Part shown: positions 15,875 to 46,630 of the stretch, in pieces
Position numbering within the stretch: the stretch's first letter is position 1
Layout of the letters: the number at the start of each line of letters is the position of its first letter
Made by a program: the position numbers and the translations under genes
Notes under the pieces: generated by a model
What the model was told of the DNA's origin: nothing
Database searches by the model: none
Seen by the model: only the letters and a program-made list of their open reading frames with translations
Assembly: GCF_029227915.1 (NCBI RefSeq)
Contig: NC_079883.1
Span: 4,960,001-5,024,000, forward strand
From: Hydractinia symbiolongicarpus
Lineage: Eukaryota; Cnidaria; Hydrozoa; Anthoathecata; Hydractiniidae
Length of the DNA: 64,000 bases
Direction of reading: 5' to 3'

Positions 15875-16597
15875 TCTATATAATAATACGCCAGTTCCGT
15901 GTGTCTGTCTGTCACTTTTGCAAAGTGGATAAAATTTCTTTGATAAAGTCTATAAAACATCGTCTATAAATTTGTTCTGTAAATTACCAAACTTTGACGT
16001 TAAAGCAATATTGACGTCAAAGGAAAGTATATTAAGATTAGTGAAGCCATTACATTGCACTTTTAAATTTAAGGCTTAATAACTTGGAAACGGGTGGAAA
16101 TAACTGACGTCATCTCCTGTGTGAGTAACTAGGGACTACCTGGGACCAATTTGGGTAGGTTTTACAAACCTGGGTCACCGAATCCGTTTCGGAAGAGACG
16201 GGTTAATGACGTCATCAAAAACTTTTAAACCCTAATATCTCCTCATCTGTTTGTCGAAAGTACACGACCCTATACATTTTCTTGATCAGCGTTTCAAGAT
16301 CTATACGATGAAGGCAGCAGGTGTACAAATTTCTAAATAAAAATTTTGGGGGGGTTTGACTGACGTCATCAAAATTTTAAAACCCTTATATCTCATTAAC
16401 TGCTTATCAAAAAGACATGATCATATACATTTTCTTGGTCAGCGTTTAAATCTCTGCACAGTACAGGCAACGAATAAACTAAATTTCGCCAAAAATTTTT
16501 GTAATTGCACTGCTGATGTCAGCAAAAAATTTAAAACAACCTATTTTTCCATTGTCCTTCTGCCTAAGTGGATTTTTCCACGGGCCTTATCGACTAG
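15875..16597 (+). mobile_element. Helitron-like element, copy 2 of a tandem pair
   Basis: Begins TCTATATAATAATACGCCAG and ends with the same hairpin (gtggatttttccac, near 16568-16581) and CTAG at 16594-16597, followed by T. The interior carries its own direct duplication: a block starting gacgtcatcaaaa at about 16210 recurs at about 16362, including the phrases tatacattttcttg and tcagcgtt. Related copies in the opposite orientation lie at 50892-51295. Non-coding; transposition would need proteins from an autonomous partner not seen here. Confidence 0.7.
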
Positions 16598-17066
16598 TCA
16601 TTCAAATAAAACTGAAAAAACAAAAAAAAACTAAAAACTTGCGTTGTTCAGAGTTACGTAAGTTAAGAAGTTTGTGTTAGGTAGCAACAACAGCTCATGT
16701 GATGCGTCACAAAGAACAACAAATGATTGGAATTATATAGCATCATCTCAAAATAAATGTTAAATAAGGTTAGTAGTTTGAATAAAGTTTGATTAATCTT
16801 TGCACAGGCAACGTTAGCTAAAAGTTTTTTACACGAGCCGGAAAGATAGCTAGCTAGCTTTAAAATTTGATATACAGCTTTTTGTAATTTCTGATAAGTA
16901 TGAAATAACTAGATAAATGAATTGAGTTTTTTTACGATTTTCTTTCGACTTTTGTGATACGAATAAAACAGCGAAGATAAAAAAAAATCATCCTTACCCA
17001 GAAAAGCATATTGACTTGAACTTTTTCTGTAAACAATCGTCCGATCTTACTATTTCTTCTTTTGTG

Positions 17067-17090: not shown

Positions 17091-17354
17091 GTTTAAATGC
17101 ACACATATATAGATCTTCTTCCTACAGTACTCTGGTTTGTATTGCCCATAGTTAGTTCACCATTTACCTATGTGCTTTTTCTGGTCAGCAGCATATATTT
17201 TGGTCAGCAGTCTTGCTAGTATTTAAGCTGCAGTTGCCTCATGGTTTTCCTTTTCAGTTCTTGCAGTTTTTCTTATGCTTATGTCTGCTGCTTATTAATC
17301 CACTTATATCTAATCAATCATTTTGCAATCAAACCAATCTTTGGTTAAATAAAC

Positions 17355-18752
17355 ATGAATTTATCACCTATATGGATGCTGTTATACTTTATCTCACCTG
17401 CTCAAACGCCAGATGGCTCAGAAGATGAAGATTCAACTTCACAAACCTTCCAATCTGCTGCAAAGTCTGTCGCTCTTGAGGATTCGTCCACACTCAAAAA
17501 GAAACGTATCCCAAAATGTCCTGGTTGCAGGGAACTTCTGGCTCTACACGACTTTGGTAATCCCAGTCGTCACTGTCCAGGTCGTCGTTCTAGCGCTACC
17601 AACACTGTCACATCAGCTGCTTCAACACTTTCCTCAACTATCGCTAATAACCCAATGTCTTCAATCCAAAGATCTTTGCCTCTGCAGTCTCACCTAAACA
17701 ACTCAAACAAATCTTCTTCGCCGTCTCAGCTAGCTGCTCTTCGAAATCAGCTGGCTGTCTTAGAACAGGAAGAGCTATCCCTAAGGGAAAGTTTACAAAC
17801 AGAAGAGCAACACCTTCTCAATCAGATTGCTGCTCGACAATCAGAATTAGCTAGGCTTCGCTCCGCTTCTTCCAGAAATGCCCGTCCAGCACAAATTTTA
17901 AGCACTTCACCGTTGCAGCAAACTGTAAATCCAACCAATCGTGTCAAAGACAATCTCCGCCCTTCACCTCTTGACGTACAACCGCCATCTTGTTTTGCTT
18001 CCTTGCTTGCTCCGCAACATTCCGCCAATTTGTTGACCAATCGCACTGTATCGTCACAACAACAAACACGCTCCCTATCGGATGTTTTTCGCCAGCAAGA
18101 AGACCGTAGTTCAGAATTGTTTCTGCGCCCTGCACTTCCTTCCAACACTGGAAATCGTAAGCCACTTCGTATTGTCGATTTTGTGTCTCGTCTTCGTCCT
18201 GTGAAGCAGGAGAAGGTTATTTCTACTGATCCTGGTTCGCAAACTACGCTAATGTTGGCCATTGGAAATAAGAAGCCAAGACTGGAATCTCTTTCCATGG
18301 AACAATATAACATAGCTAATTTCAGAATTTTTTATGAATTATTGTCTTCTGCCAGATTGCCAACCTCGTCCGATTTACGTGACTATTTGTCTTATTCCAT
18401 TAAGATCTTAGAGTTGGCTAGAAAGTATGACGATGAATATCGAATTCTTCAGCACACTTATGGCTATCCATGGAGCTTTGACAATAGCCATTTGCATGAA
18501 GTGATGCTTATACCTCGTTGGGCCTCCCCTCCTGTCTCTAACGCTTCCAGTACCTTAAGTAAGGGAAATTCAGGTTCACCTGCCTCAGAATCGTCTTCAG
18601 GGTTTCCTACACATACTTCTTCCGGTGTGGAAATATGTCGTAATTTTAACCGCCAAAAAGGTTGCCAGGAAACAGAATGTAAATTCACCCACGTCTGGTA
18701 ATCAGGCTTGTGGCAAACCTCATTCTGGACAAAACCACAATTCTGACAACTG
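17355..18752 (+). pseudogene. Gag-like protein of the DIRS/Ngaro element
   Basis: A frame of 448 codons runs to 18701. It has a Cys-rich stretch near residues 50-75 (CPGC ... HCPG), a Gln/Glu/Leu-rich probable coiled coil at about residues 130-168, a Ser/Pro/Thr-rich middle, and at the C-terminus a CCCH-type finger, CRNFNRQKGCQETECKFTH. Just after that finger the reading shifts by one base near 18695: the next frame continues with a second Cys/His cluster (CGKPH) until a TGA at 18750-18752. Gag proteins of this class bind the element RNA through such fingers. The start used here (the ATG at 17355) is uncertain because the first 20 residues look unlike the rest. Confidence 0.7.
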
Positions 18753-20240
18753 ACTACCCTCAGAATTTCGCACTCCTTTTAATGTTGACTTATGGACCAA
18801 TGAACTGGCTGAAGACCCAGATCGTGACTTCCTCCTTAATGGAATTCACTGTGGTTTTCAGCTTCTTCCTAAGGACTCTGATTTATTGCCTGCCGAAATG
18901 AATAACTACTTTTCTGTTACCAATCCTACAGCTCATATGAAAGTAGAAGCTACTCTGCTGGATGAACTCAAAACTGGTAACTATATTCTTACTCAATGTA
19001 AACCTACCATTGTCAGTGCTCTTGGGGCTGTCCGCAAACCTGACTCTGACGAGTTACGCATTATACATGACTGTTCCATGCCAGTTGGAAAGGGTGTCAA
19101 TACGTACATTGATATTGAAAAACAAAAATTTCAAACTATCTATGATGCCTGTGCTATGATCAAACAGGGATATTTTATGGCCAAGGTTGATCTACTCCAT
19201 GCATATCGGTCAGTACCTGTTCATCCATCAAACTATGCTGTGCTTGGTCTAAAATGGCGGTTTTCTGGAAGCACTCGATACTCATATCTTGTCGATACTC
19301 GACTTCCTTTTGGAGGTCGAAGTGCTCCTGGAATATTTCATCGCCTTACACAATCTGTTTGTCGTATGATGCTAAGACGAGGTTTTACTCTCGTTATTAT
19401 CTACCTAGATGATTTTCTTGTTATTGGCCGAACACAGACTGAATGTTATGAGGCCTATAACACACTCTGTAAATTACTTGTTGCACTAGGGTTTCACCTT
19501 AGCCCTGCTAAGTTGGTTCCTAACTTACTTTTCTTGGAATTCTGCTTGACACTGTGTCACTTACCCTTTCTCTTTCACCTACTAAACTGGATGCATTAAG
19601 GGAAGTAGTGTCACATTTTTTAACCAAGCAGAGAGCCTCTAAGAAAGAGTTGCAACGTCTTGCTGGTCGCCTAAATTGGGCTTGTGAAGTCGTGTATGGT
19701 GGTAGAACGTTCTTGAGACGTGTCCTGAATCTGATGAACACCTTGTCTTCCCCTGCCTCGAAGTGTCGCTTGACGCTCGAATTTCACAGGGATATAGCTT
19801 GGTGGGATAAGTTCTTGGGTGTGTTTAATGGACAATACGATTTCTATGACCAAAGACCTATTACCAGTCTGCAAACTGATGCTTGCTCTGAGGCTGTTGG
19901 TGCCTTTTTTGAGGGTGATTGGTTCTATTCTCATCTATGGGTAGACCATTCCCCTCTTGCTTCTTTGCATATTAATTTTAAGGAACCCTGTGTGTAGTTC
20001 TTTCTGCTATTTGCTGGGCTCCCACTTGGAAGAACAAAACTATTCATGTCTTCTGCGATAATACTGCTGCTGTTGCTATGCTTAATAAAGGAACTACCCA
20101 TCACCCTGTTATGATGGACTATTTACGTCAGTTGTTTTGGTTATCGGCTACCTTCAATTTTCGTTTGAAGGCTTTCCATGTAGCTGGTGCTCAGAATTTC
20201 CTTGCTGACAATATATCACGTCTTCATTCAAAACAACACT
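18753..20240 (+). pseudogene. Reverse transcriptase-RNase H of the DIRS/Ngaro element
   Basis: The RT domain occupies about 18780-19530. Visible motifs are RIIHDCSMP, the palm Asp in AKVDLLHAYRSVPVH, LPFGGRSAPGIF, and the catalytic YLDDFLVIG at about 19410. RNase H follows: RLAGRLNWACEVVYGG, an Asp in LQTDACSEAVGA, and after a break CDNTAAVAMLNKG and a C-terminal DNISRLHS. The frame shifts by one base near 19525, between RT and RNase H, and again near 19990 within RNase H. The frame is open upstream of 18886 back to about 18753, just after the TGA that ends gag. In an active element it would copy the RNA into cDNA; this copy cannot make a full protein. Confidence 0.8.
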
Positions 20241-20379
20241 TATTATCATTTTTGCATTTTTTGCAGCTCAGCTCACTGACTTCAGTCTGTGATTTGGTTG
20301 GCATCAATCATATGTCTGCCTATTCTTATTATTTTCTCATTGGTAAGTATACCATCTGTGGTAGCTAATTTTTGTATTC

Positions 20380-21346
20380 TCCTTCCTCTAGAGTTGCCCC
20401 CCTTCGTTCCAGAGTTGGTGCACGACGTTGTCCTTTTTCGGCAGGCCACCTATGCTGAGAATACAAAAAAGAGCTATCGCACGCATCGCAAGGCTTATGA
20501 ATGTTTTTGTAGCCAGATGTCTTCGCCACTTGTGCCTGCCTCCACAGATTTTTTATGCCTATATATTGCCCATTTGGCTAGGTTTTTACTACCACAATCA
20601 GTTTGTAGGTATCTAAATTTTGTTGGCCTTCTACATCTTGAGATGGGATATGCTAATCCTCTAACCAACATGAAGCGTATGCTTGGTGTTCCGGCCAAGC
20701 CACGTCTTCCTATTACCACTGCTCTTCTTTTTGGTATTCGTTCTCGCCTTAACCTAAATTGTATCTTTCATGCTTCATTTTGGGCTGTTTGTTTAGTTTC
20801 ATTTTTTGGTCTGTTTCATAAGTCACATTTATTGCCGGCATCTTCTACGATATTTAATCCGCTCAAACAACTAGTTCGGTCTGATTTTACTTTTCATGAT
20901 GACCATATTCTCGTTCTAGTTAGATGGAGTAAGACTATCCAACTGGGACAGCGCAGAATTACTGTTCCACTGGTGGCTATTCCTTCTTCTCCTCTTTGTC
21001 CAGTTCGGGCTATTTTGCATGCTTTTTCTCTCACTCCAGGTGTTCTACCTGATGCTCCAGCCTTTTGTTGGCGCAAATCCTCGATGCTACCCAACACTCT
21101 ATTGACATATCGGACTTTCATGTCCGTTATGAAAAAAGTGTTGACAGATTTAGGGTGTTCTACCTCCCAATATGGTACCCACTCGTTTCGCCGTGGGGGG
21201 GCACCTTCGCTTTAGAGGCAGGTGTTCCCCTGGATGTCATATCCTTATTGGAGGACTGGAAATCTGATAGTATGTTTCTTTACCTTCACATGCCCCTTGC
21301 TCAGCGGTTTTCTGCCCAACGACTTATGGCATCACACCTTGGATGA
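20380..21346 (+). pseudogene. Tyrosine recombinase of the DIRS/Ngaro element
   Basis: N-terminal SAM-like helices (RQATYAENTKKSYRTHRKAY and on) precede the catalytic core. Box II is intact as HSFRRGG at about 21180. The box I Arg, expected in an FFGLFRKS-type motif, is His here (FGLFHKSHLL, near 20815), a change explained by one G-to-A step at a CpG. A G-run at about 21196 then breaks the frame; the other frame carries the rest, with the nucleophile Tyr in LYLHMPL at about 21285. These enzymes integrate a circular cDNA. With the Arg lost and the frame broken, this copy is dead. Confidence 0.8.
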
Positions 21347-22185: not shown

Positions 22186-22187
22186 GA

Positions 22188-22497
22188 GTTTAAAATTCGT
22201 AAAAATATCACTGGTCATCAATCAGTTTAATAAAATTAGAATATAGATGTAATACTTTTTCCGACTTACGGGTACATTTGACAGTGATTGATGTTTCACA
22301 ACAGCTTAAGCATACAAAAGCCTGTAATATCCGTTCATTACGAAAAGGAAAAGACGTTTATTTTGGTAAATGAGATGAAATTTAAGTTGGGACCTGCAAA
22401 TAAAGTTTAAAATTCTTAAAAATATCACTGGTCATCAATCAGTTTAATAAAATTAGAATATAGATGTAATACTTTTTCCGACTTACGGGTACATTTG
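22188..22497. repeat. Two near-identical 93-bp direct repeats, 217 bp apart
   Basis: The segment beginning gtttaaaattc and ending cttacgggtacatttg occurs at 22188-22280 and 22405-22497 with a single visible mismatch. The flanks also show weaker similarity (an attgatgtttc/atttatgtttcc tail). The near identity suggests a recent local duplication. Confidence 0.8.
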
Positions 22498-22499
22498 CT

Positions 22500-23321
<822 letters not shown>

Positions 23322-23347
23322 GCATATTTATTATTTTATTGTTTCAG

Positions 23348-26300
23348 TGCACTAACACTTCACGAATTTGAAGCTTTATGTCACAAATTTGTTCCTTTGG
23401 TGCATAAAATTTTTACTGGGAAGGTATAAAATTTTTGTTGTTACTTTGATCATGTATAATATTGGTATCCAGGATTTTGTATATACTCTATATACATTTA
23501 TTTAGGATCCATCTTGTCATAGACATCAAATGTACAACATGGGCGGGAAAAAAAAGGGTAATATTTCTATTGTTTTTCTTTTTTTTTTTAAATAATATTA
23601 TCGAAACATTCTATTTTAATTTTTGTCATGTATCTCTAGCACAACTTCGAAACTTTAATGCATCCAATGTGTTTACTGATGAGCAACATGAAATGGTAGC
23701 AAGCATCCTTGTCAACAAGTACTGCAGTGAGCATTCAAAAGTAAGAACAAATGTTCTTTGAAAAAAAAATTGCACCTACAGGTTCAATCAAGTTTAAATA
23801 ATCTGAACATATACTCATTTTTTTAGTACTTTGATTATGTATTTAAAGTTATGATCCCAGAACTTGAGAAAAGAATAGTAATGGAAGTTTTTAAAGTTTT
23901 TCCTGAGCAGGTGGGTATTGTGAATTTATTATTTTGACCAGAAATGCTTTTCTTACACCAGAATTTCTCTCTTAAGCTCTGTACCTTTTTTGGTTTTAGG
24001 CTGAAGACATTTTGAATCATGGCAAAGAGATGCTAGAATATATGTTGAATGATGTAAGGGTAGTGTAAAAATATTGAAGTTAATTGTACGCCTCAAATTC
24101 ACATATTACTGCCAATCTTTTAGAAAATATGTCAGTGTAAAATCATATTTCTCAATGACGAAGATAAAGAGCTGATGTGGATAAAGGAGTACATTCCAAG
24201 GTAATAATTTTTAGAAAATTTTAACCCTACTTGATCTGAAAGTATTTGAACATACTAGTAGGCTCTGCAGCAGAATCTACATAGACAATGTCATAATGAG
24301 GAAATGGTACACTACTTGCCTTTTAATTTTAAGTACTTTCTTTGTAGGTGTTATTTCAAACTGTAGAGAAATGATTAAAGTATTTCTGATTTATAATTAT
24401 AGTGAACCAGTACAGCAATCGTTTGACGTAGCAAATAAAGATGTGTCGGAAACTTCACAGTTAACAAGGTGAATTAACATAATAGTAGCCATGTCATCAA
24501 CCAATTTTAGATAATTTGCAGTACTTTCTCTGTAGGTGCTATTCCTGCCTGTAGAGAAATGGTTAAAGTATTTCTGATTAGTAATTATAGTGAACCAGTT
24601 AAGCAATCAATTGACGTAGCAAATGAAAATGTGTCGGAAACTTCACAGTTAACAAGGTAAATTAACATAATAGTACCCATGTTATCAGCTAATTTTGGAG
24701 ATTTTGCAGTACTTTCTCTGTAGGTGTTATTTCTGTCTGTAAAGAAATGGTTAAAGTACTTCTGATTAATAATTATAGTGAACCAGTACAGCAATCGTTT
24801 GACGTAGCAAATAAAGATGTGTCGGAAACTTCACAGTTAACAAGGTGAATTAACATAATAGTAGCCATGTTATCAGCTAATTTTGGAGATTTTGCAGTAC
24901 TTTCTCTGTAGGTGTTATTTCTGTCTGTAAAGAAATGGTTAAAGTACTTCTGATTAATAATTATAGTGAGCCAGTTCAGCAATCTATTGACGTAGCAAAT
25001 AAAGATGTGTCTGAAACGTCACAGTTAACAAGGTAAATTAACATAATAGTAGCCATGTCATCAACTAATTTTGGAGATTTTGCAGTACTTTCTCTGTAGG
25101 TGTTATTTCTGTCTGTAAAGAAATGGTTAAAGTACTTCTGATTAATAATTATAGTGAACCAGTACAGCAATCGTTTGACGTAGCAAATAAAGATGTGTCG
25201 GAAACTTCACAGTTAACAAGGTGAATTAACATAATAGTAGCCATGTTATCAGCTAATTTTGGAGATTTTGCAGTACTTTCTCTGTAGGTGTTATTTCTGT
25301 CTGTAAAGAAATGGTTAAAGTACTTCTGATTAATAATTATAGTGAGCCAGTTCAGCAATCTATTGACGTAGCAAATAAAGATGTGTCTGAAACGTCACAG
25401 TTAACAAGGTAAATTAACATAATAGTAGCCATGTCATCAACTAATTTTGGAGATTTTGCAGTACTTTCTCTGTAGGTGTTATTTCTGTCTGTAAAGAAAT
25501 GGTTAAAGTACTTCTGATTAATAATTATAGTGAGCCAGTTAAGCAATCTATTGACGTAGAAAATAAAGATGTGTCTGAAACGTCACAGTTAACAAGGTAA
25601 ATTAACATAATAGTAGCCATGTTATCAGCTAATTTTGGAGATTTTGCAGTACTTTCTCTGTAGGTGTTATTTCTGTCTGTAAAGAAATGGTTAAAGTACT
25701 TCTGATTAATAATTATAGTGAGCCAGTTCAGCAATCTATTGACGTAGCAAATAAAGATGTGTCTGAAACGTCACAGTTAACAAGGTAAATTAACATAATA
25801 GTAGCCATGTTATCAGCTAATTTTGGAGATTTTGCAGTACTTTCTCTGTAGGTGTTATTTCTGTCTGTAAAGAAATGGTTAAAGTACTTCTGATTAATAA
25901 TTATAGTGAGCCAGTTCAGCAATCTATTGACGTAGCAAATAAAGATGTGTCTGAAACGTCACGGTTAACAAGGTAAATTAACATAATAGTAGCCATGTCA
26001 TCAACTAATTTTGGAGATTTGGCAGTACTTTCTCTGTAGGTGTTATTTCTGTCTGTAAAGAAATGGTTAAAGTACTTCTGATTAATAATTATAGTGAGCC
26101 ATTTCAGCAATCTATTGACGTAGCAAATAAAGATGTGTCTGAAACGTCACAGTTAACAAGGTAAATTAACATAATAGTAGCCATGTTATCAGCTAATTTT
26201 GGAGATTTTGCAGTACTTTCTCTGTAGGCGTTATTTCTGTCTGTAAAGAAATGGTTAAAGTACTTCTGATTAATAATTATAGTGAGCCAGTTCAGCAATC

Positions 26301-29175
26301 TATTGACGTAGCAAATAAAGATGTGTCGAAAACTTCACAGTTAACAAGGTAAAGTAATCCAAAAGTCACCTTGTAGTAATCAAAAAAAAGTTAGCTTAAT
26401 TTTTTAATTCTAAACAAGAAGTTATTCCTGTAATTATGATGAGGTATAGCAACCCCGCAATAAGCAATAATAATACTTGTATTTGTGAACTTCTGTATAA
26501 GAATTAATTTAATTAAAACACGCTTTATTAGTTATTTTATGAGAACTTAGACAACTTTACATTTCAGTGCACAAGTAGCATTGCTTAACGCAATTAACAA
26601 TCACAACATTGGAGCAGCGAAAAAAGTAAGTAAATAGCGTAACTTCTCTACATCGTTAAATATGCCAGATTGCACTGTCTGCACTGTCACCGATTGCACT
26701 GTCACCGACTAAATCTAACCTGTATTTAACCTGTATCTTAATCGCTTAAATTCAAGTAAGACAAAATTGAATGTCTTCCATATCTAGGCTTTGAAGACTT
26801 GGGAACAAGAAGATATAGAAAAACATGTTGCTGCAGCTCCTTCTGCACGTAGAAAAGTTGTCTGTCCTGTCTGCAGTCGGTAAGTTTTTTCGCCTGGTAA
26901 ATATTTGAACTGGATATTCTAGGGACTAATAAAGTTAGCAGATTTTAAGTTACTTCTTCTTTTTCTTCTTAGTGAGGTTGTGAACTTAAAAGTTCATTTG
27001 ATGTCTCGAAAACATTTATGGACAAAAGAGAAAGCTGAGAGTGCCCGCATTAACTTCAAATTAAATCTGGAGAGGAAACCGCTTGAGTCTTCTATTCGAA
27101 AATCTAAACAACGTTTTCATGTTCGCCAAATATGCCCGCTTTCTCATTGCATGAAAGAAGTGAAAAGACTAGGAAACCATTTGCGGCAATTTCACAAAAT
27201 AACTCCTTCCAAAGTTGTACAACACGTGAAAAATGCTCAAAAAGTGTTGTCAAGTGAAGACGAATCTTCGGCGTCTGAAAGGGCAACTTCTGACGAGGAA
27301 GAATATACTTCAAAGGTGAAAAAACTTTATAGTAAAGACTTGTTCCATCGTGGAGTAGGCATGCACGAAGAATGCGACTCAGATGATTCTGATTGGCTTT
27401 TATCTACGTTTGGGGATATTCACGGCTCACGAATATTGACCAGCAACAAAAATGAAAACGCCAAATGTTCTGACAACGTAGATTTTGAAAACCACGGGAA
27501 TTTATCCACAGACAATGACTCTGACAACTCCTCCAAGTCAAACTCTGCCTTAGATGCTGAATGTACGGAGCTATCGGATTATGAAGACACGGAGGACAAA
27601 TTCTATGTCACTTCACAAGCAGATGACATTGTGCTTGAAAGTTTTAAGTCTTGGTTGATTAGTGCTGATGGTGGTTACAGACCTGAAAGGACAAGTAAGC
27701 AACACAAAAATGTTATTCTCGCTATTCTTAATCACCGAAGTAATATTGAACCACTGAAATTTTCAAATCTAGTAGAAAAGGAATTCCTTGAAAGCTGGAT
27801 CCAGATTTGTGATAAATCGAAACAACCTGGGACAATAAAAACATACCTTTGCTCTGTTTTATGTTTTTACGATTATTGTGAAGTGACAGGTTGTGGCTTA
27901 TTACCATCTGAACTTATAGGTAGAATGAGAACAGTAATAAGGAAGTGGGGTCACAATCTAATAAAAAAGATCCAAGTAAGATCGTACGAAAAACAGCTAA
28001 ATGACTTGAATCGTTTGCCTACGCCTGAAGAACTGCGAAAGTATGATTGCTCAAAAGTGGTTCAGTATTCCAAAGCATTATTAAAAAATGCTACATGCAA
28101 AGACTCCTGGACAAGGAAAGAATTTTGTGCAATTCGAGACTACCTGATATCTACTTTAATTATGGACAATGCTAGCAGATCAGGTGCAATTGCCAACATG
28201 TTGTTAGAAGAAGTAGGAAATACCAATAACTCGGACGGGGGATGCACAATTGCAGTGAAGAAACACAAAACAGGCTACAAAGGACCTGCTTTCATTACAA
28301 TGACTATTGAAACTTTTAAGAACTTAAAAAATTACATCCGTTATGTCAGGAATTCTTTACAAGGAATCAATTCTGGCGGTAAAGAACCTGTATTTGTTAG
28401 CTGGGCTGGAAACAAAATGGCTTCTTCCATGGTCACTGGGCAACTCTCAAGCTTTTGGGCTCAAGCTCTTGGCCGTGATTGTGGCGATTTGACCACAACC
28501 TTAGTTCGAAAATATGCTACCACAACGATTCATAAAAATCAACCGGAATTAAAGCAAGCCACTGCTAATCTTTTATGTCATGCTGAACGAACGGCATCAA
28601 TGTCATATAACTTAATTGATAAACAGAGAAGAGCCTTTCAGACAAGTCAGCAAGTTAGGGAGGCTATGAGGACAGATTTCGATACGAATGAAATAAATTT
28701 GGACTTACAAGTCAACGACCTTAAAGAAATATTTTCTTCTGAAATCAACGATGGTTTTGTGTCGACCGAGATTATACGGGATAGAATTTCCTCAGACGCA
28801 AGGTTAAGCGATTTAAATGGGAACGAGAAGAAGGAAAAGGCACTGCTAGATTCTGTGCGGTATATTATAAAAAAAGAAGGAACTCATACCAAATCTGCTG
28901 ATGAAAGGGTTACCGAGAAGGTACCTGATACTCCTTCGGCGAAATGTATTAGCATGTCCAGACAACGTAAAAAGTATACCGATTCTGATAACACGATAAT
29001 TTGGAAATGTTTAGGTGATCAGATCAGAGATACGAATAATGCGATATCTCGAGCAGAATGCACTGAAATTATCAAAAATACTCCTATGATGGCACAATTG
29101 GTGTCAAAATTTGGCATGCACTCACTTATTATTAAAATAAGAACTGAAAGAGCTAAGTTTTTAAATGAAACCTAG
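23348..29175 (+). CDS. Zinc-finger/Crypton-type tyrosine recombinase protein, 5' incomplete
   Basis: Exons joined by phase: 23348-23423, 23506-23557, 23640-23740, 23827-23910, 24000-24053, 24124-24200, eleven 66-bp exons (24403-26348), 26568-26625, 26788-26879 and 26973-29175. Together they encode about 1170 residues; the start codon lies upstream and was not found. The N-terminal part matches nothing I recognise. A C2H2 finger (CPVCS ... HLMSRKH) spans the last intron, a second follows (CPLSHC ... HLRQFH), then an acidic Ser-rich linker. A recombinase core comes next: SAM-like region ([19 protein letters not shown]), box I Arg in [11 protein letters not shown], Lys in [30 protein letters not shown] and Tyr in SMSYNLID. 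The core resembles Crypton-type YR domains common in cnidarian genomes. Arg, Lys, Arg, His and Tyr are all present, though Thr replaces the first His of HxxR. Spliced exons, intact frame and zinc fingers suggest a host-domesticated gene; an active element is the alternative. Confidence 0.75.
24330..26348 (+). repeat. Tandem array of eleven 66-bp exons, 188-bp period
   Basis: Exons lie at 24403, 24591, 24779, 24967, 25155, 25343, 25531, 25719, 25907, 26095 and 26283 (each 66 bp), exactly 188 bp apart. Each is preceded by ataattatag (ttataattatag/gtaattatag in the first two) and followed by GTGAAT or GTAAAT (GTAAAG after the last). All begin with one base completing a codon and end with two, so any number can be joined in frame; none has a stop. 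Each adds 22 residues, typified by [19 protein letters not shown]. The intron part is as conserved as the exon, so the whole 188-bp unit has been copied recently or homogenised. Changes are few, for example Ala to Glu in exon 7 and Gln to Arg in exon 9. Confidence 0.9.
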
Positions 29176-29406
29176 TGGATATGGTCGATGACGAAATTTT
29201 ATCAAGAGAATTGTTTTGTTATTTTTATCGTTTTTTTTTGTTATTCAGTTTTCATTGTGTTTCATATGCACGGTCATAAAATAGCGTTTTGTTTTCATGC
29301 TTCGTACAACAAGGTAGGAATCCGTAACTATAAAGAAATTTACTTACTTTTCTTTACGATAAAACTATAAAATGCAATGGATGTAATGTGATAATTAAGT
29401 TGTTAA

Positions 29407-29412
29407 AATAAA
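29407..29412 (+). promoter_or_regulatory. Likely polyadenylation signal (AATAAA)
   Basis: AATAAA lies 232 bases after the stop codon of the recombinase-domain gene, in an AT-rich 3' region, at a reasonable distance for its poly(A) signal. Other matches in AT-rich DNA would arise by chance. Confidence 0.4.
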
Positions 29413-31390
29413 CCTGGTGGAATATAAGCTATGGTGTGTTTTTGTTAGAAGCAAAAGTTTTTATGGACTTTTTTTAATTCTTGTATTTAATCTATACGGC
29501 TTTATTCTTTGGCAGAAAATGCTAGATTCGTTTGACGGTTTGTTTTTCTATGCTGCGTAAAAAAACGATATCTACAGAAATTATGTTTTTTTCTTCCTTT
29601 ATATGAGTTTGTCAACCTTTTTAGAGTTGATTTACAGTTGAAAGAATTTTGCGCTTTATTTAATCGTCTTTTATTCCCTGATCTCTAAAAACCCTTGTTG
29701 ACAGTGCTTGTGTGACAAACGAATCAAAAAAATCGAAACTCGTAAGGCATAAGACAATCAAACGCACTACGAAATAAGAGATGTTTGCTGACTGGTTAGA
29801 CAACTTCCGCTACTATGATTTCTTATCGCCACGAACCGATGGATGTCATTGTGTTAAGGTTTCTTTGGCCCTATCCGGTCTGAGGGCGGGTGGATAAGAA
29901 ACCCAGGACCGAATAGGATTAGGTAGTTCTGTTCGCAAAGCAAGGTATGAAAATTCCAAAGATCCTGGCAATATGCAAGTTCGAAGGTTTTCACAGAAGT
30001 ACAGAAACATATAAGGAAGCATGGGTGAAGGCATGGATATTTTAACGGATTACCAAAATTACAGTGTTGCTATTTTCTATGCCTTTTTTCAAAAAAAACC
30101 TGGCGCAATTTGTTATTACTTTCTCAGACATACAGAATGCACAAATAGTATTGCGAAAAACATGTACGATGGGTGAATTCCTGCCACGTTCACAACGGGC
30201 TAGGAACCGGTCTTTTAAACCAATATGTTTTGCTTGTAACGGTATTAGGACGGCTAGTTCGCGTAAAGTGTGCACAAAATAGCAATACCCGGGATTAAGC
30301 CGTTTGAAAAATAATCTAAAGATAGGAATAACTAAAACAGAACAAATTGTGAATATTTCAGTGCCATCAATTTTTCTACGAACCTAGAGAAGGAGTTTCA
30401 AGGATGAAATATTGCCGATGAATTAAGTAAAGGTGCATAGTTGTCAAAGGACAAATATCTTTAAATTGGATACTCCGTAGAAACTAAAACACTTCATGTA
30501 AAGTATTATAAGGCGACTTCTGGTTTTCGTGCATCTGCAAAATTAACAATTTATCAATTAAATCCTAAATTTATTACCCCTAATTGAGAATTTGGGGGCA
30601 AAGCAAAATGGAAAAATTACATTGGCCCTCATGTTACGTTAACAGAATCCTATATATACACCCAAGTATTAAATACGAGTTTCTCACAATTGCGTAGTGT
30701 ATAGAGTATCAAAAGACAATTTTAATGACATAAACACAGTTTTTAGAAATCCAACACATTTTCCTAAAACGCTAGCACAATATTTGCAAAAATGCACCCT
30801 TATGTTAATTTCCGTTAATAATTAATACCTGGATTTCTTGCAAGCGGTAATTTTTTTCATAAAGTAATAAGGTATGTCAGAACAGAAACTGTGAGAGGAA
30901 CAACATGACGAAGTCTTTAAATTTAACTTAACCGATGCCTGTTGTGAATATCATATTATAATATTCTGCGCTCTCGACGATAATTTTTAGTTTTCACAAA
31001 CATACCCGATGTTATGTTGTAGGTGAATGACTCGCCTTTCAGTGCATCGATTTTTTTCCAATTTTCGCGTAAGTAAGGAACCCTTTGGATGAAAATCTAA
31101 TATGTCTATGTCATTTTGGAGGGAATAAGATAACTGAAAACTGTATTTAAGGTTATTTTGGTACAATCATAGGAACACAGCGAAAGTGCCCTTAGCCCCT
31201 ATGTGGACTATTTTTACTTACGAAATACCTTTTTGACGCAAGAATCAACCAATATTTGACAAATTAATCACAGCATGCGTGGCGATCATGCAGTTGCGTA
31301 AAAACACAAGTCATTCCTAGTCTGAATGTTTAGATTACTTATATATTGCTACATTTTACCTTAAGCATGGGGGCACAAATTGCCTAAAAA
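29413..31390. other. Non-coding spacer between the recombinase gene and LINE
   Basis: No supported gene. Overlapping frames of 60-77 codons on both strands at 29846-30282 mirror one another and have no domains. Near 29868-29925 the phrases cctatccggtctgaggg and acccaggaccgaatagg suggest another small imperfect foldback. Elsewhere the stretch is plain AT-rich DNA. Confidence 0.5.
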
Positions 31391-31399
31391 CCTAAATTA

Positions 31400-33499
31400 A
31401 GTAAGTAAGATACGATAGAATATACTCAAGTGATTTTACATCAAAACCGTAAGCATGAAGTTTGGCTATAAGTAGATCGTGGGGGACACAGTCAAAAGCT
31501 TTTGATAAGTCCATTAATATTGAACCAACCACATAATTCAGATCCAGTTTTTTTTCCAATCCTCTAATAGGCGTATCAATACGTGATTGGTGCTATAGTT
31601 TTTCCTGTAAGCAGATAAGTACACAGAAAGTTTTTTTTCCATGAAAGACATTATTTGCTCTTTGATTTTTATTTCATAAAACTTAGAGAAAAAATTTAAT
31701 ACACTAATAGGTCTAAAATTATTGAGACTGTACTTTTCCTTGCTTCCCTTGTCAATTGGTGTAACAACCGCACGCTTAGCTTTAGTTGGGAAAAAACTGG
31801 CACGGATGCTACTATTTAAGGCATTTTTGAGGGGCAATATTAAGTGCTCACTAGCTAGTTTTGCAAGTTTTGGCGGTATCTTATCTTCGTCTGCAGACGC
31901 TTTAGTGTTTATTTCTTTAAATACTTTTTTGATTTCTTCATCACCTATTTCCTTAAATTGAAAATTTTCAGACACATTTTCAATATTTTCTTTTATCTTT
32001 AGGATACTTGGATGATTTTTATAGGTTTTTAAAATTTTCTCAATCAACTTTTTCTTATCTGTAAATGATTTAAAATCAATAGAGGTAGGTTTAATACCAC
32101 TGCTATTTTCAACAATATTTATGAAGTGGCTATTCAATGTTGTTGCCACTTCATTTTCATCTGTAATCAAATTATCGTTTTGGATTATCGTAATATTTGC
32201 ATTACTTAAGCAATTTTTATTGGTTACAAAAGGTTTCATAACTTTCCAAAAATTTTTATTTTCGACTGCTCCGGCCTGGGTTATTTTTTTGAAATATTCC
32301 TTAACACCTATATTTCGTAATTTTACGCATTTGTTTCTTTGTCTTTTATAATTGGCATTGTTTTCCTCAGTTTTATCATTGTTATATTTATTTTTAAACC
32401 TTGACCTAGAGTATATAGCCTTTCTTAATTCTTTATTCATGAAGGGAGCATCGTTTCCACGCAATGTTTTCTGTATCAAAGGAGCATGTTTATCTACAAT
32501 ATTTCTAAAAATTACTTGAAGATTTTCATAGTTCAAATCAGGATCGGCAGTGTCACAACAAAAGTCAGCAGCTTTTACATCAGCCAAAAACGTCTTTTCA
32601 TCGAAATTTTTATAGTTTCTATAGAATATTTTCTTTGGCTGTAAACGGGCTAGATGCATTTTTAAAAATGTAGTTATCATTAGATGATGGTCACTTAACC
32701 CTGTTTCAAACGCTGAACTATTTTGAAAAGACCTATATCTGTTTGTCAATAAGACATCAATTGAAGAGCCTTCTGTTCCTGCAAAGCATGTTTTATCTTT
32801 AATGAGGTTTTTGAGATTGAAAATATCACAAAGTGACTGCATCTGCCCATAGCCACTATCACTTGGATTATAAAAATCTATATTAATATCACCCAGAACA
32901 ATAATATTGTCACATTTAGAAAGAGCATTGTTTAGAATTTTTTCCAATTCATAGAAAAATTGTGTTAAGTTCAAATATGAAGGTGGCCGATAAATGCTAA
33001 TTATAATCCATTTTTTATTTCTAATAGTAATTTCAGAACAGATAATTTCATTCTCTACAATTCCAATATTGTGTAACTGTTTACAAATGACCCCTTTCCC
33101 AACATACTCAATTAAACCTCCTCCATGTATGTTTCTGTCCTTTCGGGTTCTAATTTCATATCCGTCAATATTAAATTGAGCAGTTGGAAAAGATTCATCC
33201 AGTTTAGTTTCTGCAAGTACGAAATAGTCAGGAGAAAATTTAGACATGATCTCTCTGACGTCGACAATTTTATTTCTCAGACTGTTTATATTTAAGTAAC
33301 CTAAAAGAGGATTATCGGGATTAGCAACTCTAAGTTTACAGATACTATCGAGCGGGCTATCAGGTTCGGAATTTGAATTATGTGTTTGGTTAAGATCATC
33401 AATTTCATTTTGTAATAACAAAGGGTTATTTTGTGTTTCACTTGAATCTGAAAAAACTTGTGCCTCTTGTGGTGTCTGAGTGCAAGGACCTATACCCAA
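31400..33499 (-). pseudogene. LINE ORF2: AP endonuclease and truncated reverse transcriptase
   Basis: The frame runs 653 codons from 33499 to 31538. The endonuclease is complete by motif: GYLNINSLRNKI, LAETKLDESFP, IYRPPS, GDINIDF, SSIDVLLTNR and GLSDHHLM, which cover the metal-binding and catalytic Asn, Glu, Asp and His positions of the family. The RT begins with FRPISVLNFFSKFYE and YSTNHVLIRLLEDW. A single-base change in an A/T homopolymer near 31548 then gives a stop. The next frame continues with the Asp of LMDLSKAFDCVPH until about 31400, where similarity ends, so the YxDD core is absent. The listed start is a TTG within the overlap with ORF1; no ATG start is evident. Confidence 0.8.
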
Positions 33500-37940: not shown

Positions 37941-38665
37941 TCAGGCTTGCCTCCACAATTGTTCAAGATCTGCCCTTTCATCCTCCGAAAAGCACCAATC
38001 CATGACCCTACCCGGATGCCAGGCTATCGGAGCTAGCTCCTCTTTAATCCTAGCCTTTTCGGCTTTCCTCTGGCGATAGGCAGAGAGTAGTTCGGGCCTA
38101 GTATTTATAATTATGTTATTATTAAATTCCGGGTGACAAAACATTCCGGCATATACTCGAACATATCTTCATCCCTTATAACAGCCCATTTACACATGTA
38201 CTGTGTCTTGAGCCGATCCGGCACATATTCGAGCGCCCAGGGATACCTTAAAACGGCCTTGTTACACATGTCTTGAGTCTTGAACCTGTCCGGTACATAT
38301 TCGAGCATGTCGGCATACTCCTCAACAACCCTGTTACACATTTCCTGGGTCGTAAAACGATCTGGCACATACTCGATTTTATAGGGATTTCCTTCAATCA
38401 GTCGGTTGTACATGTCCTGCGTTTTGAATTTTGACGGCACAAAATCGAGCATCCGGGGCCCCTCCCCAACAGCCTTGTTACACATGTCTTGCGTCTTGAA
38501 TTTTGAAGGTACATGCATGAGTGCATATGGATTCTCCTCAACGGCCTTATTACACATTTCCTGCGTTTTGAATTGATCTGGTATGCGTCTGAACATGTGG
38601 GGCTTCTTTTCGAATGCCTCGTTGCACATGTCCTGTGTCTTTAAAACGATGCTTCTCCTGCCCAT
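37941..38665 (-). pseudogene. 24-residue-repeat protein (KTQDMCNKAV type), frameshifted
   Basis: From an ATG at 38665 seven consecutive 24-residue units follow, each on the pattern FKTQ[DE]MCNKAV-x3-P-x2-L-x2-VP[DS][RK]. The frame ends at 38111. A second frame that overlaps it (38144-37941) carries what reads as the C-terminal domain (ELAPIAWHPGRVMDWCFSED), so one frame shift near 38120-38140 separates repeat and tail. Repeats of this type occur in cnidarian proteins and resemble the DUF4116-like repeats of giant viruses; they should form paired helices in a solenoid. Their role is unknown. The gene sits at the outer end of the virus-like island. Confidence 0.6.
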
Positions 38666-39580
38666 CTTTATATAGAATTTTTTTGTTTTGTTGGAAGATT
38701 TTATTCTGCTCGACCTAGCGTGTCTTTACTGCGCATGCGTTTATATTTTGATGAATATAAGGGAAAGTCTCTTTTTACTCATTTGCTGTATACTTTGATG
38801 TGCGATGATTTTTAGGGAAATGCGCTATAAAATATTGGACCTTTTATTCAGATGACGTCATCTGAATGTAGATTAGTATGAAATGGTATCGGATGGTGAT
38901 GGATTAATAGGGACTAGACAGGGTATGGTGCTGGCATTGTAGGGATTTGCTGTGACGTCTGTGGACGTGCGCGACAACGCTAGAACATACATTTCTCTAT
39001 CTCTATGGCCATCGACAGAAAATATATGTATTTGTTATGAAGGCGATAGAGAGAGTATTATCAGGGTATTATGCAGTATTTTACGATATTACGTTGGTTA
39101 TGGCCTATCGTTAGAAAAATATGTATTTGTTATGTAGCGATAGAAAGGAAGTCGGATAATGAGGGTTCATCTGTCGGGTCCATTTGGTTGGAGTACCCTC
39201 AATGAACGTATGTCGGACTTTTTATGTCGATAAAGTGTGAAGGGGTGCTAATTATGTTTACGTCGTGTGTCGACCCATTAGCACGGTGCTAAATAGAGTC
39301 GTAGCCCCCATTTTTAAGCCGAAAATTCGTGCTTCCCTTACATGAATTCAACTAACCGTGCGTAATCGTGGACCAAAGTACCTTTCTCCCCCATCATCAC
39401 AACCAGAGATCTTTTCTTCTTTTGTAATTCCCTCTACTTGAGCTTCAACTCCTTTAATATCTCACACCTGTTATTTACCTCGGGGTGCCCCACCTCTGCT
39501 GTCATATCTCCATTATCAGCGTACATTTGTTTGTTTAAATCTCTGCTGTCATTTCGTTATTTCTGTTTTCACCCCTCTCT
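38666..39580. other. Spacer between the virus-like island and LINE tail
   Basis: No gene seen. Base composition is still less AT-rich than average, so this may be the flank or terminal region of the virus-like element. It contains an imperfect direct repeat of about 50 bases (ctatggcc ... ggcgatagag at 39001-39052 and ttatggcc ... agcgatagaa at about 39098-39145). An inverted repeat gtgctaat/attagcac (39245-39252 and 39277-39284) is followed by a further copy of ggtgcta. Confidence 0.5.
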
Positions 39581-41599: not shown

Positions 41600-42600
41600 T
41601 CATTGCTTTGACCCCTTAGCTATAGTGTCAATGTTTAGAGTAGCTATATGAATGTCTCTGTTTACCTTTTTGCCAGTAAATCTTTTATCATGATCTCGCA
41701 TAATGGTTACCATCTTTAAATACTTTAAATACAATTTTAAACATAACATCAAATTGGAACAAAAATTTTATACTTGAATGCCCTTTTTGACTTTTAACAC
41801 TCCACTTCCTGAGACACTACATCTTCAATGACAACGATCACAAAACCTGGTACTAGAAGAACCACGACAACCCGCAAATACCTGATACTGTACAGCAGAG
41901 GGATTCGACCATGCTGTAGTCCTCTCTAAAAGAACTTTTTGTCAAAAAAGGTTCAGCCAGTTCAGACAGGAGTTGAGTGACCAGAGCATGAAGACTAGTC
42001 ACCCAATGTTTTTGCACATACAGTTGTAAAACCATATACTCAACCTCCAATGCTTAATCTGTAAATCCTGCAGTTACAGGTTACCCTGGTTTCTTCTCTT
42101 TGCTAAATATGAGTTTTCATAGAATCATACTTAAGAATGTGTGATATTACCAGTCAGCAACAATTTCATTTATATAAGCTATTCTGCTCAAACCTAATGG
42201 TTTATATTTTTATAGCTTTAGCTTTAATTTGAAATGTGGTTGCATATACAAATTTAGCCCCTTGTAGATAACTTTTTCATATTAAAACATATTTACACAG
42301 TGAAAAACCTTTCAACTTAAATAAACATTGCTACCGACAGGTGCCCTTTTTAAAACAAAAATATCCAAATTTTAACTTTTTAATATATTAAAAAAATAAG
42401 GTAGAAAAAATGGCTATAGCAAAAAATTTGCATGGGCCAGAAAGAAATGCTGGCAGGGAGAATAACATGCAGTAAGGAATTGTAGTATATAAGTTAACTG
42501 AAGAATACTTAAAACAAACTAGTGAATTTTTTTCTGAACACTCACTTTAAATTTACCAGTGTGTGCAGTGCTGTAAATTTTTGCTGTTATTATTCTTTAA
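41600..42600. other. Upstream region of MRPS18B
   Basis: No exon recognised. The promoter of the following gene and possibly a 5' non-coding exon must lie here: a splice acceptor (tttatttctag) ends at 42618, just before the gene's ATG, which suggests that the 5' untranslated region is spliced. No promoter motif can be named. Confidence 0.4.
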
Positions 42601-42631
42601 ACTTATCTTTATTTCTAGGTTTTCAAAAATT

Positions 42632-43372
42632 ATGACTGCTGTATTTGCATCAAAATTGATTTTCAGAAAATGCTTAAAAACTGTCAGTCCAGCCTGCGTT
42701 AACTATCTGCATGTGTCAGTTAAAAAAGTTGGCACGCATGATTATGATGCTATTGATTACGCTGTTCCAGCTAACAGTATGCAAGATTTTATTAGAAGTC
42801 CAAGTATTTTAAATGAAATTCGAAAGAACACAGGAGCAGTAGTGAGACCCAAAGATCTAGATGAAAGTAATTTATTAATTGTAGGCAGTGCAGTGCAAGT
42901 TAAAATAGCCACACAACAAATCAAGGCACTCATTGATGGGACAAATCCTCCGAAATCTGAAGACATGTTTAGCGAACAGAATAAAAAATTAATTTGGCAC
43001 GGTTACAAACGTAATTTCAAAGGTCAATACCCACCTGCTAAGCCTCGTAAGAAATGCATTAGATGTGGTGGTAAAATGATATCTGGAAATCCCTGCCCTC
43101 TATGTCAGTTAAAACTTAAATCCAACTATGACATACACTATACTGATGTTGAAATATTAAATCATTTTATTTGTCCACATACATGGAATATACTTGATCC
43201 ATTTATTACAGGCGTTTGCAAAAGGCAACAAACTATTGTGGAAGCTGCAATAGCAAAAGCTCGTTTGTACGGTTTACTTCCATTTACATTGCCACTTCCA
43301 AGTGACGAGCCTACCAAACATAAACCTGCTGGCGTCCCAACTGATCGAAAAATTAAAGTTAAAATGCACTAA
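42632..43372 (+). CDS. MRPS18B: Mitochondrial ribosomal protein S18B (mS40)
   Basis: A 246-residue frame in one coding exon. The first 40 residues are basic and hydroxylated (ASKLIFRKCLKTVSPACVNY), as expected of a mitochondrial targeting sequence. The core from about residue 110 is diagnostic of the S18B branch: LIWHGYKRNFKGQYPPAKPR, KKCIRCGGKMISGNPCPLC with two CxxC pairs that bind a metal centre in this family, then ILNHFICPHTWNILDPFITG and KARLYGLLPFTLP. S18B is one of three S18 paralogues in animal mitoribosomes and sits in the small subunit. I chose the ATG at 42632; the frame is open upstream to 42563, but that part crosses a splice acceptor at 42618. A poly(A) signal AATAAA lies at 43509-43514. 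Confidence 0.9.
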   Translation: MTAVFASKLIFRKCLKTVSPACVNYLHVSVKKVGTHDYDAIDYAVPANSMQDFIRSPSILNEIRKNTGAVVRPKDLDESNLLIVGSAVQVKIATQQIKALIDGTNPPKSEDMFSEQNKKLIWHGYKRNFKGQYPPAKPRKKCIRCGGKMISGNPCPLCQLKLKSNYDIHYTDVEILNHFICPHTWNILDPFITGVCKRQQTIVEAAIAKARLYGLLPFTLPLPSDEPTKHKPAGVPTDRKIKVKMH

Positions 43373-43508
43373 CTGTATTTTACTGGCTTGTTTAAAAGAG
43401 AGACAACAAATTGTAAAATTTTACGCCTTTTCTACTAAATAATTATAATGTAGATATTGGACCTAATAATCTATCTTTTGGTTATTTATGATATTTCTGA
43501 GGTGGTTA

Positions 43509-43514
43509 AATAAA
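43509..43514 (+). promoter_or_regulatory. Polyadenylation signal for MRPS18B
   Basis: AATAAA 137 bases after the MRPS18B stop codon, in a T-rich 3' region. Position and context suit a poly(A) signal. Confidence 0.55.
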
Positions 43515-43519
43515 AGAAG

Positions 43520-44362
43520 TTATAAAAATGTTCCTACTGTCTTATACTTTAGTCTAGGTATTACCAGTTTTATTTTGTGAAAAGCAATTTACTTATTCTA
43601 TATCTAGATGAGATGACATATTTTTAAAATATTCCGCTTTTGCAAATAATTTGTCTTTTACATAATACTTTAGAAGTTTGCTCTTTAGATTAAAGTAACT
43701 AATGCAGAAAGTGGGAAAATTTCGACGCTTTCTTGCTCTGCATAACAACAAGATTTTAATATGTACTGGCACCATTACAATTTGTGGTCAACTCTTAGTT
43801 ATCAGACGAAGTCAAAAAGATGAAGGCAACTTTCACAAACGCAAGTAGTTTGTTATTTTATTATTTCAACACTAGGTGTCTAAACATCATTTTTACATTC
43901 TTTATTAATTTCCTAACTCTGACAGCCTGTGAAATTTTAGATTCATAAACTAGATTTTACCTTTAGTGGGTTGTGTGAATATGATTCCCTTTAAAGTGTG
44001 TAAAAATTATTTTTTGATAAGTAAAAGTTAATAAGTATAGAAAATGTTGTTATACCAAGTCATCACCTCAAGTTTTACAAAGTTAGCAAGTTTTGGTATT
44101 TCTTAAGAATTAAACGTGACATTTTTGTTCCCATGCATATATAAAGACTTATTTTGCGAAATCATCAACTAATAGTCAGTTTCGCAATTAATTTTCACAA
44201 AATTTACAAAAGCTTAATTCTTTTGTAATTTCTAGAAAGAAGGTCTGTTTTGTTTTCTAATTTTGACTTGAAGTAAAAAGTACTGTAGTTTCTGTTAGGT
44301 TTGAATAAATGGTGTCTATTATGCTCAAACCAAAATTCCAAAGTTAATGTTTTCTTTATTAG
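43520..44362. other. Spacer; may hold upstream exons of the next gene
   Basis: No exon could be joined in phase to the exon at 44363. The 60-codon minus-strand frame at 43593-43775 has no recognisable features. Confidence 0.4.
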
Positions 44363-45680
44363 TAACTCCTGAAGACGTCGAATCGGGCCGTGTGTGGATG
44401 GAAGGAATGCAACGATGGAAAGAAGAGTATCTTGAGTTCAAGGTTTCATTTTTTTTTGCGTATTTGTTTTATTAAAAAGCACTTTTAGATGCCAAAATGG
44501 TAGACAACAAAATCATTGATTAGGTGAATTTATATCACCAGTCTGGGAGACAGAGAAAGAAAGAAGGGTTGGTATTTATAGCATTGAAGATGTTATCCAG
44601 ATGAAAAGATTAATTTGGTTGAGATGCTTAAAAAACATGGAGGCAGCTAATGAGACAAGAAAGTGTAGAGGCTGGGTAGTTCCTGGTGCAAAGTCCAGTA
44701 GCCGACTGGGAAAGACTTGTTACAAATGAATTTGAGTGTAGAAATAACATAAATAATGATGGTAATGTTGATGTTATGGTGATAATATTGATGATGGTGA
44801 TGATATTACCCCAAAGAAACAAAAACAATTTTTCCACATTGACGGGTGAATTTTACCAGCAAAATAAGATATCTCTTAAACTGTAATTTCTGTCTGAATT
44901 AGATTTTTTTATATGCCTCACAACTAGTATGTGCTAGTATTGTATTTCAAGCGTGGGTTGTGTGAACAGCAGTTTAAATCAGTTGTAGGTTTTGAGAAAT
45001 TACATTTTCTTTCCTTTAAAACTTTTTTATCAGTTAGTATTTAATTTTTATAGGGTATATTACTTGAGAAAATTTCATCACTCTTTGGAAAGAGATAATA
45101 CTGGTAATTTCTGCTTGTTACTGATTTTTTTAACTGTAAAATGTTAATGTGTAATCTGATTGATGTGTAATTGATTTCTGGTGGGTGGAGGGTGTGGTGT
45201 AAGCATACTATCTTATCAATGTGTCGATTTTTTTGTTTGCTTGCTTCTATGTGGACACAACTAGAATTTATGAAGTGCTTTTTTCAGGTAGAACGTTTCT
45301 CTTTATATAGAATTGTGTTAGGGTGTTGCATAATGTTCAGAAAATTTGTAAACCGTAACAAACTAGTCACTCTTAGCATAAATTTTTTTGCGATGTGTGG
45401 GTGTGTGTCTCCTGATTATGCCTACATTAGGCAGAGTGAGAGTTTAAAAAAAATTCTTACAAAATGTGTCATAGCATGAGGGGAGGAGTAAGGAGGTGTT
45501 TTAAAAAGCATCCCAATGTTGTTTTTTATGAAAATTGTTTCATTTTTTTTATTTTGGTTAAAAAAATATGCTACCAAATATTGAATGGTATAGGAAAATC
45601 AAATTAAACATTTTTTGTTATCACTAAAATAAAGTTTTATTTTATAGGTTCAAAATGAGTACGCATGGAAGTTATTTTGA
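44363..45680 (+). CDS. Last two exons of an unidentified gene
   Basis: Exon 44363-44442 (80 bp) follows tttctttattag and ends before GTTTCA; it reads TPEDVESGRVWMEGMQRWKE and on for 26 residues, highly charged and helical. Exon 45648-45680 follows tttataggt-type acceptor sequence, starts in the same phase and gives ten residues ending WKLF before a TGA. Composition and phase make this a believable gene end. The first exon needs one base from an earlier exon that I could not find. It could encode a short helical protein; I do not recognise the family. Confidence 0.5.
44571..44735 (+). pseudogene. Possible LINE C-terminal relic within an intron
   Basis: A frame starting near 44601 reads MKRLIWLRCLKNMEAANETR and on through GWVVPGAKSSSRLGKT before a stop. 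The order of an Arg-Leu-x-Trp segment, a Met-Glu segment and a basic Gly/Ser/Arg-rich end resembles the C-terminal tail of some LINE ORF2 proteins. It is short and diverged, so this is tentative. Confidence 0.35.
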
Positions 45681-45689
45681 GTAGCCAGG

Positions 45690-46625: not shown

Positions 46626-46630
46626 TCAAG

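Follow-up and report, generated by a model that had tools for sequence, protein, structure and literature searches.

A predicted gene in the window, i.e. the whole 64-kb stretch of Hydractinia symbiolongicarpus DNA that was analysed (on contig C9), contains eleven short, nearly identical exons in a tandem array. In our preferred reading, to which we assign a probability of roughly two in three, this gene joins an RTC4-like N-terminal region, a linker rich in Ser/Thr and acidic residues, C2H2-like fingers and a tyrosine-recombinase-like C-terminus, and the array supplies its in-frame 66-bp exons, the number of which changes. The exon borders are intact, their phases agree, the reading frame is open, and a second copy on contig C2, only 0.24% diverged, carries 9 units instead of 11. 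As a mechanism, near-identical units may exchange unequally or slip in replication, and this would add or remove whole exons and leave the frame untouched. The array exons would be spliced into the mRNA, and the part of the protein that varies would be a disordered linker or spacer, the length of which would change by 22 residues per unit.

Tandem Repeats Finder, together with border inspection, placed the 188-bp array of 11 exon cassettes at 24332-26357 on the forward strand, with a period of 188, 10.8 copies, 95% match and 0% indels. The cassettes themselves span 24403-26348. All 11 are 66 bp long at a spacing of exactly 188 bp, have AG before and GT after, and are free of stops in the model frame, which reads T/GAA...ACA AG; the arrangement described in the original prediction was thus verified in every cassette. 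On the forward strand, array exons 1 to 11 lie at 24403-24468, 24591-24656, 24779-24844, 24967-25032, 25155-25220, 25343-25408, 25531-25596, 25719-25784, 25907-25972, 26095-26160 and 26283-26348, the last with the donor GTAAAG. One genomic unit of 188 bp consists of exon plus intron and is present in 11 copies; the ten introns between neighbouring array exons measure 122 bp each. The expectation that each exon adds the same 22-residue unit holds as far as near-identity is concerned, but not strictly, as the 11 units encode seven distinct 21-residue peptides. Units 3 and 5 are the same over the full 188 bp, as are units 4 and 6, and at lag 376 exact matching extends over at most 469 bp (24689-25157, forward strand, repeated exactly 376 bp downstream), a trace of the latest two-unit duplication.

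With 66 bp and equal phase at both ends, the array exon is frame-neutral. Because all borders share one phase, any subset of units keeps the frame, as had been proposed: translation confirmed an open frame with 11 or 0 units, and the other subsets follow from the phase. A retained array intron leads to a stop one codon past the exon in 11/11 units. Therefore, the repeat can code only by splicing, and coding by read-through of the minisatellite was ruled out. With strict thresholds, which were taken from the real unit and are hence post hoc, a cassette was found in 0 of 3000 dinucleotide shuffles and in 0 of 924 background segments of 188 bp, cut with overlap from the window. When the codon score was dropped, strong splice sites plus an open frame were present in 1.5% of the shuffles and 0.8% of the background pieces, and with lenient thresholds 82% of the shuffles passed as a cassette. 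It is important to add that the 11 intact borders are not 11 independent proofs, because all copies share one ancestor. Rfam at gathering cutoffs gave no match, and hits of the repeats to Umbravirus and other Pfam families were weak and taken as chance. An SQ motif, which we take to be a possible ATM/ATR-type site, occurs in 10 of the 11 units; SQ or TQ is also present in 66% of shuffled units. It is speculation that the count of such possible sites scales with unit number.

Around the array, further exons on the forward strand were read from splice borders, six of them upstream (23348-24200) and three downstream (26568-29175). The upstream exons u1 to u6 lie at 23348-23423, 23506-23557, 23640-23740, 23827-23910, 24000-24053 and 24124-24200; u1 has an acceptor phase compatible with the start exon described below for C2, and u6 ends in CCA AG, with the same phase into the array exons or into d1. 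Downstream, d1 (26568-26625) is followed by d2 (26788-26879), with a C2H2-like motif across d2 and d3, and by the last exon d3 (26973-29175, 2203 bp), which holds C2H2-like motifs and the recombinase-like domain and ends at the stop TAG. An AATAAA is present downstream of the stop codon (29407-29412, forward strand). Joined with 11 units, the model runs for 1173 codons before the stop, with the start exon missing, and for 931 without the array. The RTC4-like Pfam match covers residues 71-115 of the upstream part and lies just below the cutoff (E 1.2e-4, 22.6 bits versus 23.7). As this match runs across the three exons u3-u5, it supports their joins. The zf-Di19 match on the finger motif of d2/d3 was likewise below the cutoff (E 0.0012).

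The host genome (480.9 Mb, 76 contigs) was searched for other copies. The last exon has at least 66 matches (60 of 260 candidates were scored), and the matches listed include the C2 copy at about 100% identity, a fragment on C10 at 98%, fragments on C7 at 83-88% and more distant relatives. A search with units 3-4 as query found array DNA at three places, on C9, C2 and C7. The window and C2 have in common an 8-kb block (23314-31408, forward strand), the match to C2 beginning in a GA microsatellite at about 23297; the microsatellite as a whole, (TA)100 plus (AG)22 at 23074-23317 on the same strand, marks the end of homology to the C2 copy. The divergence of 0.24% holds over 23314-31196, with 18 substitutions in 7496 aligned bases and gaps of 376, 9 and 2 bp. 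For the last 217 bp of the block (31192-31408), the C2 match resumes past a nested insertion.

The C2 copy has the same exons and a reading frame that is open to the stop. Its 9 units differ from the 11 of the window by one exact 376-bp step of two units, as counted in one assembly. Taken in order, C2 units 1-8 correspond to units 1, 2, 3 (or 5), 4 (or 6), 7, 8, 9 and 10 of the window, with 0 or 1 differences each, C2 units 4, 5 and 7 being tied with other window units; the last C2 unit shows 0 differences from window unit 11. The C7 copy is decayed and retains two units plus a stub. Altogether, the array length appears to change by whole exons, in agreement with the copy-number change that the original prediction had envisaged. 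Two further observations concern these copies. The C10 fragment (17810900-17813147), 98% identical to window 28290-30424, has about 115 extra bases at window 30055, where C7 has an extra stretch of equal length and the window and C2 have none. The insertion nested in the C2 block is a 5.8-kb element (C2 18255013-18249239) with the inverted ends CACGGCTGTTTCAG...CTGAAACAGCCGTG and the target duplication TTAG. One scan each of viral contigs (3 pattern stretches) and of bacterial and archaeal contigs (32 pattern stretches) confirmed no relatives.

One alternative concerns the status of the window copy. Upstream of the microsatellite, C2 and C7 have four further blocks in common, of 152-430 bp and 75-87% identity, which are distributed along about 1.9 kb of C2 (18264527-18262599). 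One of these blocks contains the start exon ATGAATAGCAGTAATAGTAT, followed by the donor GTAAGT (C2 18262943-18262924), which encodes MNSSNS, is in phase with u1 and has a counterpart kept in C7. Four of the listed candidates had a higher raw score, and it was picked for its donor, its phase and its occurrence in C7. Including this exon, the gene on C2 encodes 1136 aa from ATG to stop, and C2 holds the complete copy among those seen. The start exon was not found in the 64-kb window on either strand with up to 4 mismatches, nor did the window yield a match to the upstream block of C2. Since both are absent, the window copy, which the original prediction had treated as a working gene, looks 5'-truncated and is probably a recent duplicate that lacks the start-codon exon. 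The array in the window could accordingly be that of an inert duplicate, a pseudogene that lost its start exon and promoter and whose minisatellite drifts freely. We rate this as just short of an even chance. The coding changes that postdate the duplication, 6 of them nonsynonymous and 0 synonymous, point in the same direction as the absent start exon. However, modelled exons, splice dinucleotides and frame are all intact, which at 0.24% divergence is expected either way, and in-frame ATGs in u2, found by reading, are possible alternative starts.

Synonymous and nonsynonymous changes were also counted among the array units and between the two copies; a dN/dS comparison across copies had been put forward with the original prediction. 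The array cores hold 8 nonsynonymous and 6 synonymous changes, with p 0.07-0.18 for synonymous excess, depending on the transition weight; read as 135-bp exons, the units would hold 19 nonsynonymous and 8 synonymous changes (p 0.25-0.51). Between the window and C2, the 6 coding changes fall in about 3390 aligned coding sites, and 12 changes fall in 4106 other sites. Purifying selection at the protein level is thus not clear, either among the array cores or between the window and C2. Regarding homogenisation, the proportion of variable columns in the core versus the 122-bp intron depends on the units that are included: 12/66 versus 16/122 for units 1-10 (p 0.39), 12/66 versus 6/122 for units 2-10 (p 0.0075), 10/66 versus 5/122 for units 3-10 (p 0.011) and 4/66 versus 4/122 for units 7-10 (p 0.45). 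Units 1 and 3 have the same core sequence but 14 differences in their 122-bp flanks (p 0.0025; four pairs were examined, of which this is one); local gene conversion would explain this pattern.

The last exon raises a different question, namely whether the gene belongs to a mobile element. Five motifs in d3 (28168-28620, forward strand), NASR, VKKHK, TLVR, CHAE and SYNL, were assigned by eye as candidate tyrosine-recombinase catalytic positions, R402, K432, R512, H536 and Y545. When four relatives at 33% identity were aligned with it, H431-K432, T509-x-x-R512, H536 and Y545 did not vary, and 4 of 5 rows kept R402; the His usual before the second Arg appears as Thr509. Because the four relatives are almost the same in sequence, this amounts to a comparison of two families. 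Pfam gave no match to d3 as a whole and only Dynein_C (E 0.039) on a 346-aa piece of it. The sole NCBIfam match, XerD (TIGR02225), was weak, with E 0.0035 on the 346-aa piece and 0.071 on the whole of d3, and the relative L005 had no XerD match. Neither single-sequence nor profile searches of the PDB found a recombinase; hits to seryl-tRNA ligase were taken as chance. Structure prediction without an alignment gave a mean pLDDT of 35.3 for d3 and 34.1 for the recombinase-like part. The recombinase label of the original prediction comes down to one weak match and the motif spacing.

In a tentative reading, which we place somewhat below even odds, the block is a Crypton-type transposon or another mobile element with a tyrosine recombinase, the array is a feature of the element's gene, and transposition produced the copies. 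Copies or fragments are found on C9, C2, C7 and C10, the last exon has the many genomic matches given above, and the motif spacing is kept in one related family. C2 and C7 both cease matching the window at 31408-31409, and outside the block no flanking sequence was seen to match the window, apart from microsatellites and a dispersed repeat. Cryptons have also been reported from a sea anemone, in the part of the report considered here (PMC3212892). On the other hand, no Pfam family covers the whole last exon, the XerD match is weak and the PDB profile search returned no recombinase. For a transposon, so many introns and so few copies of the array part would be unusual. At its left end, the window copy differs from C2 and C7, and a target-site duplication for the block was not established. 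More doubtful still is the extended proposal of a dispersed recombinase-encoding element that carries its own length dial, an in-frame exon minisatellite that would gain or lose units as the copies diverge, so that the linker between the N-terminal region and the finger and recombinase-like part would differ in length per copy.

The surroundings of the gene contain several other elements. Directly upstream of the gene block lies a DIRS-like retroelement (window 17349-21215), the reverse transcriptase of which was recognised by Pfam; its last ORF has a weak integrase-type match (E 0.072), and a comparison of the gene with the recombinase-like ORF of this retroelement gave no match. A dispersed repeat at window about 16121-16598 shares about 81% identity with part of the C7 copy's upstream region, and a related stretch lies near C2 18244000. 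A 94-bp direct repeat (window 22187-22280 and 22404-22497) is 99% identical between its two copies, which are 217 bp apart. Further downstream, an ORF at 38111-38725 contains about seven degenerate repeats (FKTQDMCNKAV...) in a stretch of higher G+C, a ribosomal protein S18 family member with a weak KH match lies at 42551-43369, and a Codanin-1 homologue at 47945-49804 (PDB match, E 5.6e-63). Three-frame PDB searches of 43300-58001 for more splice sites found only the large codanin exon.

Returning to the gene with its array of 66-bp exons, we also considered that the array exon might be 135 bp long (45 codons), with the acceptor GATTTTGCAG upstream, an intron of 53 bp and 495 residues added by the array. 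Exon 1 would then include a 69-bp 5' extension at 24334-24402 (forward strand), repeated every 188 bp in each unit. By eye this longer exon was at first favoured: the added 69 bp are open in frame in 11/11 window units, the array start given by Tandem Repeats Finder falls exactly at this AG in unit 1, and a CTAAT branch-like site can be read upstream in most units. However, 69-bp background windows are open by chance in 23% of cases, and the 69 bp score like background, with 0.009 bits per codon in 8 of the 11 units and 0.025, 0.08 and, in unit 1, -0.084 in the other three. The 69 bp hold 11 nonsynonymous and 2 synonymous changes. A 2-bp deletion within the 69 bp of C2 unit 1 breaks the frame while the AG at the 66-bp border remains, and in the second C7 unit the AG of the longer exon is lost. 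An acceptor matrix built from nine sites likewise favours the 66-bp acceptor in 11/11 units. Codon scores, acceptor scores and the C2 deletion thus speak against the 135-bp exon, which we consider unlikely, and the 66-bp exon is favoured.

In the case of the 66-bp cores, the coding score reaches 0.344-0.435 bits per codon. Among 4353 open background windows, none reaches a typical core and 0.07% reach unit 1. This signal persists in the same order with a model trained without this gene and lies in the amino-acid composition; by synonymous codon choice alone, the tested cores were indistinguishable from background. The same acceptor matrix, which comprises only nine sites from this gene, ranks a frame-breaking third acceptor at the top in 10 of 11 units, above the 66-bp acceptor. 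In each unit, TACTTTCTYTGTAG/G forms a strong acceptor-like site 55 bp ahead of the 66-bp exon. Its use would, as read by eye, shift the frame and lead to a premature stop, so that it could be a poison splice site.

That the array, or at least the difference of 11 versus 9, is an assembly artefact appears very improbable: an error in the unit count is conceivable because the two additional units repeat their neighbours exactly (units 5-6 are identical to units 3-4), but units 1, 2, 7, 9, 10 and 11 carry private changes and an independent locus holds the same ordered units.

Exon arrays of this kind are already known, so that the rarity assumed in the original prediction is not supported. In the parts of the SmPoMuc report considered here, a 27-bp exon of these Schistosoma mansoni mucin genes, together with its flanking introns, forms tandem genomic repeats of up to 20, the number of which varies between loci of the gene family; concerted evolution is described, with homogenisation of the intronic part while exon types stay different (PMC2576457). 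As in SmPoMuc, a short frame-neutral exon plus intron forms the tandem unit here and the unit number varies between gene copies. However, the unit is 188 bp here and about 1 kb there, as far as that account goes, and the SmPoMuc genes encode polymorphic mucins with demonstrated cDNA length variants, whereas here we have a gene model only, with finger and recombinase-like motifs. The same authors name a spider silk gene as a parallel, citing Hayashi and Lewis 2000; in their brief description, its protein repeats correspond to tandem genomic repeats of exon plus intron under concerted evolution, with the introns more homogenised (PMC2576457). The correspondence between protein repeats and tandem exon-intron repeats in this modular gene is, so far described, the same as in our array. 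The silk protein is reportedly structural and built from larger units.

In teleost piccolo b, according to the sections considered, one same-frame exon was amplified 8 to 16 times, possibly by unequal crossover as proposed there; changes in exon number are described as rare events, and the zebrafish exons are 702-1350 bp long, diverged and each contain parts of folded zinc-finger domains (PMC3484663). The amplified exon thus begins and ends in the same frame in both cases, but the array exon here, at 66 bp, is unlike those large, diverged exons with their zinc-finger parts. Schistosoma micro-exon genes have many short exons, mostly multiples of three, and in the portion of the literature consulted the micro-exons make up most of the gene, with long introns and secreted products (PMC10526429). 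Our gene resembles them, at that level of description, in having many short exons, most of them a multiple of three in length. A micro-exon gene has most of its coding sequence in exons of 6-81 bp, and the last exon here alone measures 2203 bp. To our knowledge, the exons of micro-exon genes are not copies of one unit. Finally, the Crypton-derived DUF3504 genes (ZMYM2-4, QRICH1, WOC) join, in the passages considered, a tyrosine-recombinase-derived domain to other nuclear-type domains (PMC3212892). Our gene likewise appears to join a recombinase-type domain to such domains; the DUF3504 genes, as described there, lost the catalytic tyrosine and the second arginine, whereas the candidates Y545 and R512 are kept here. 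Pfam gave no match linking the two. A literature search did not find this gene, which is no proof of its being unpublished.

While the exon-array architecture is known from systems such as SmPoMuc, as far as described in PMC2576457, what is unusual here is the compact unit, the recombinase-like gene and the dispersed copies that differ by whole units. As a caution, an exon array may look striking and yet belong to a truncated duplicate, the complete gene lying elsewhere. With copies that are 0.24% diverged and two exons apart, a change in exon number has been caught close to the event. As the array is short enough for one long read, the rate of whole-exon gain and loss is testable, and the effect of linker length in a recombinase-like protein becomes testable as well.
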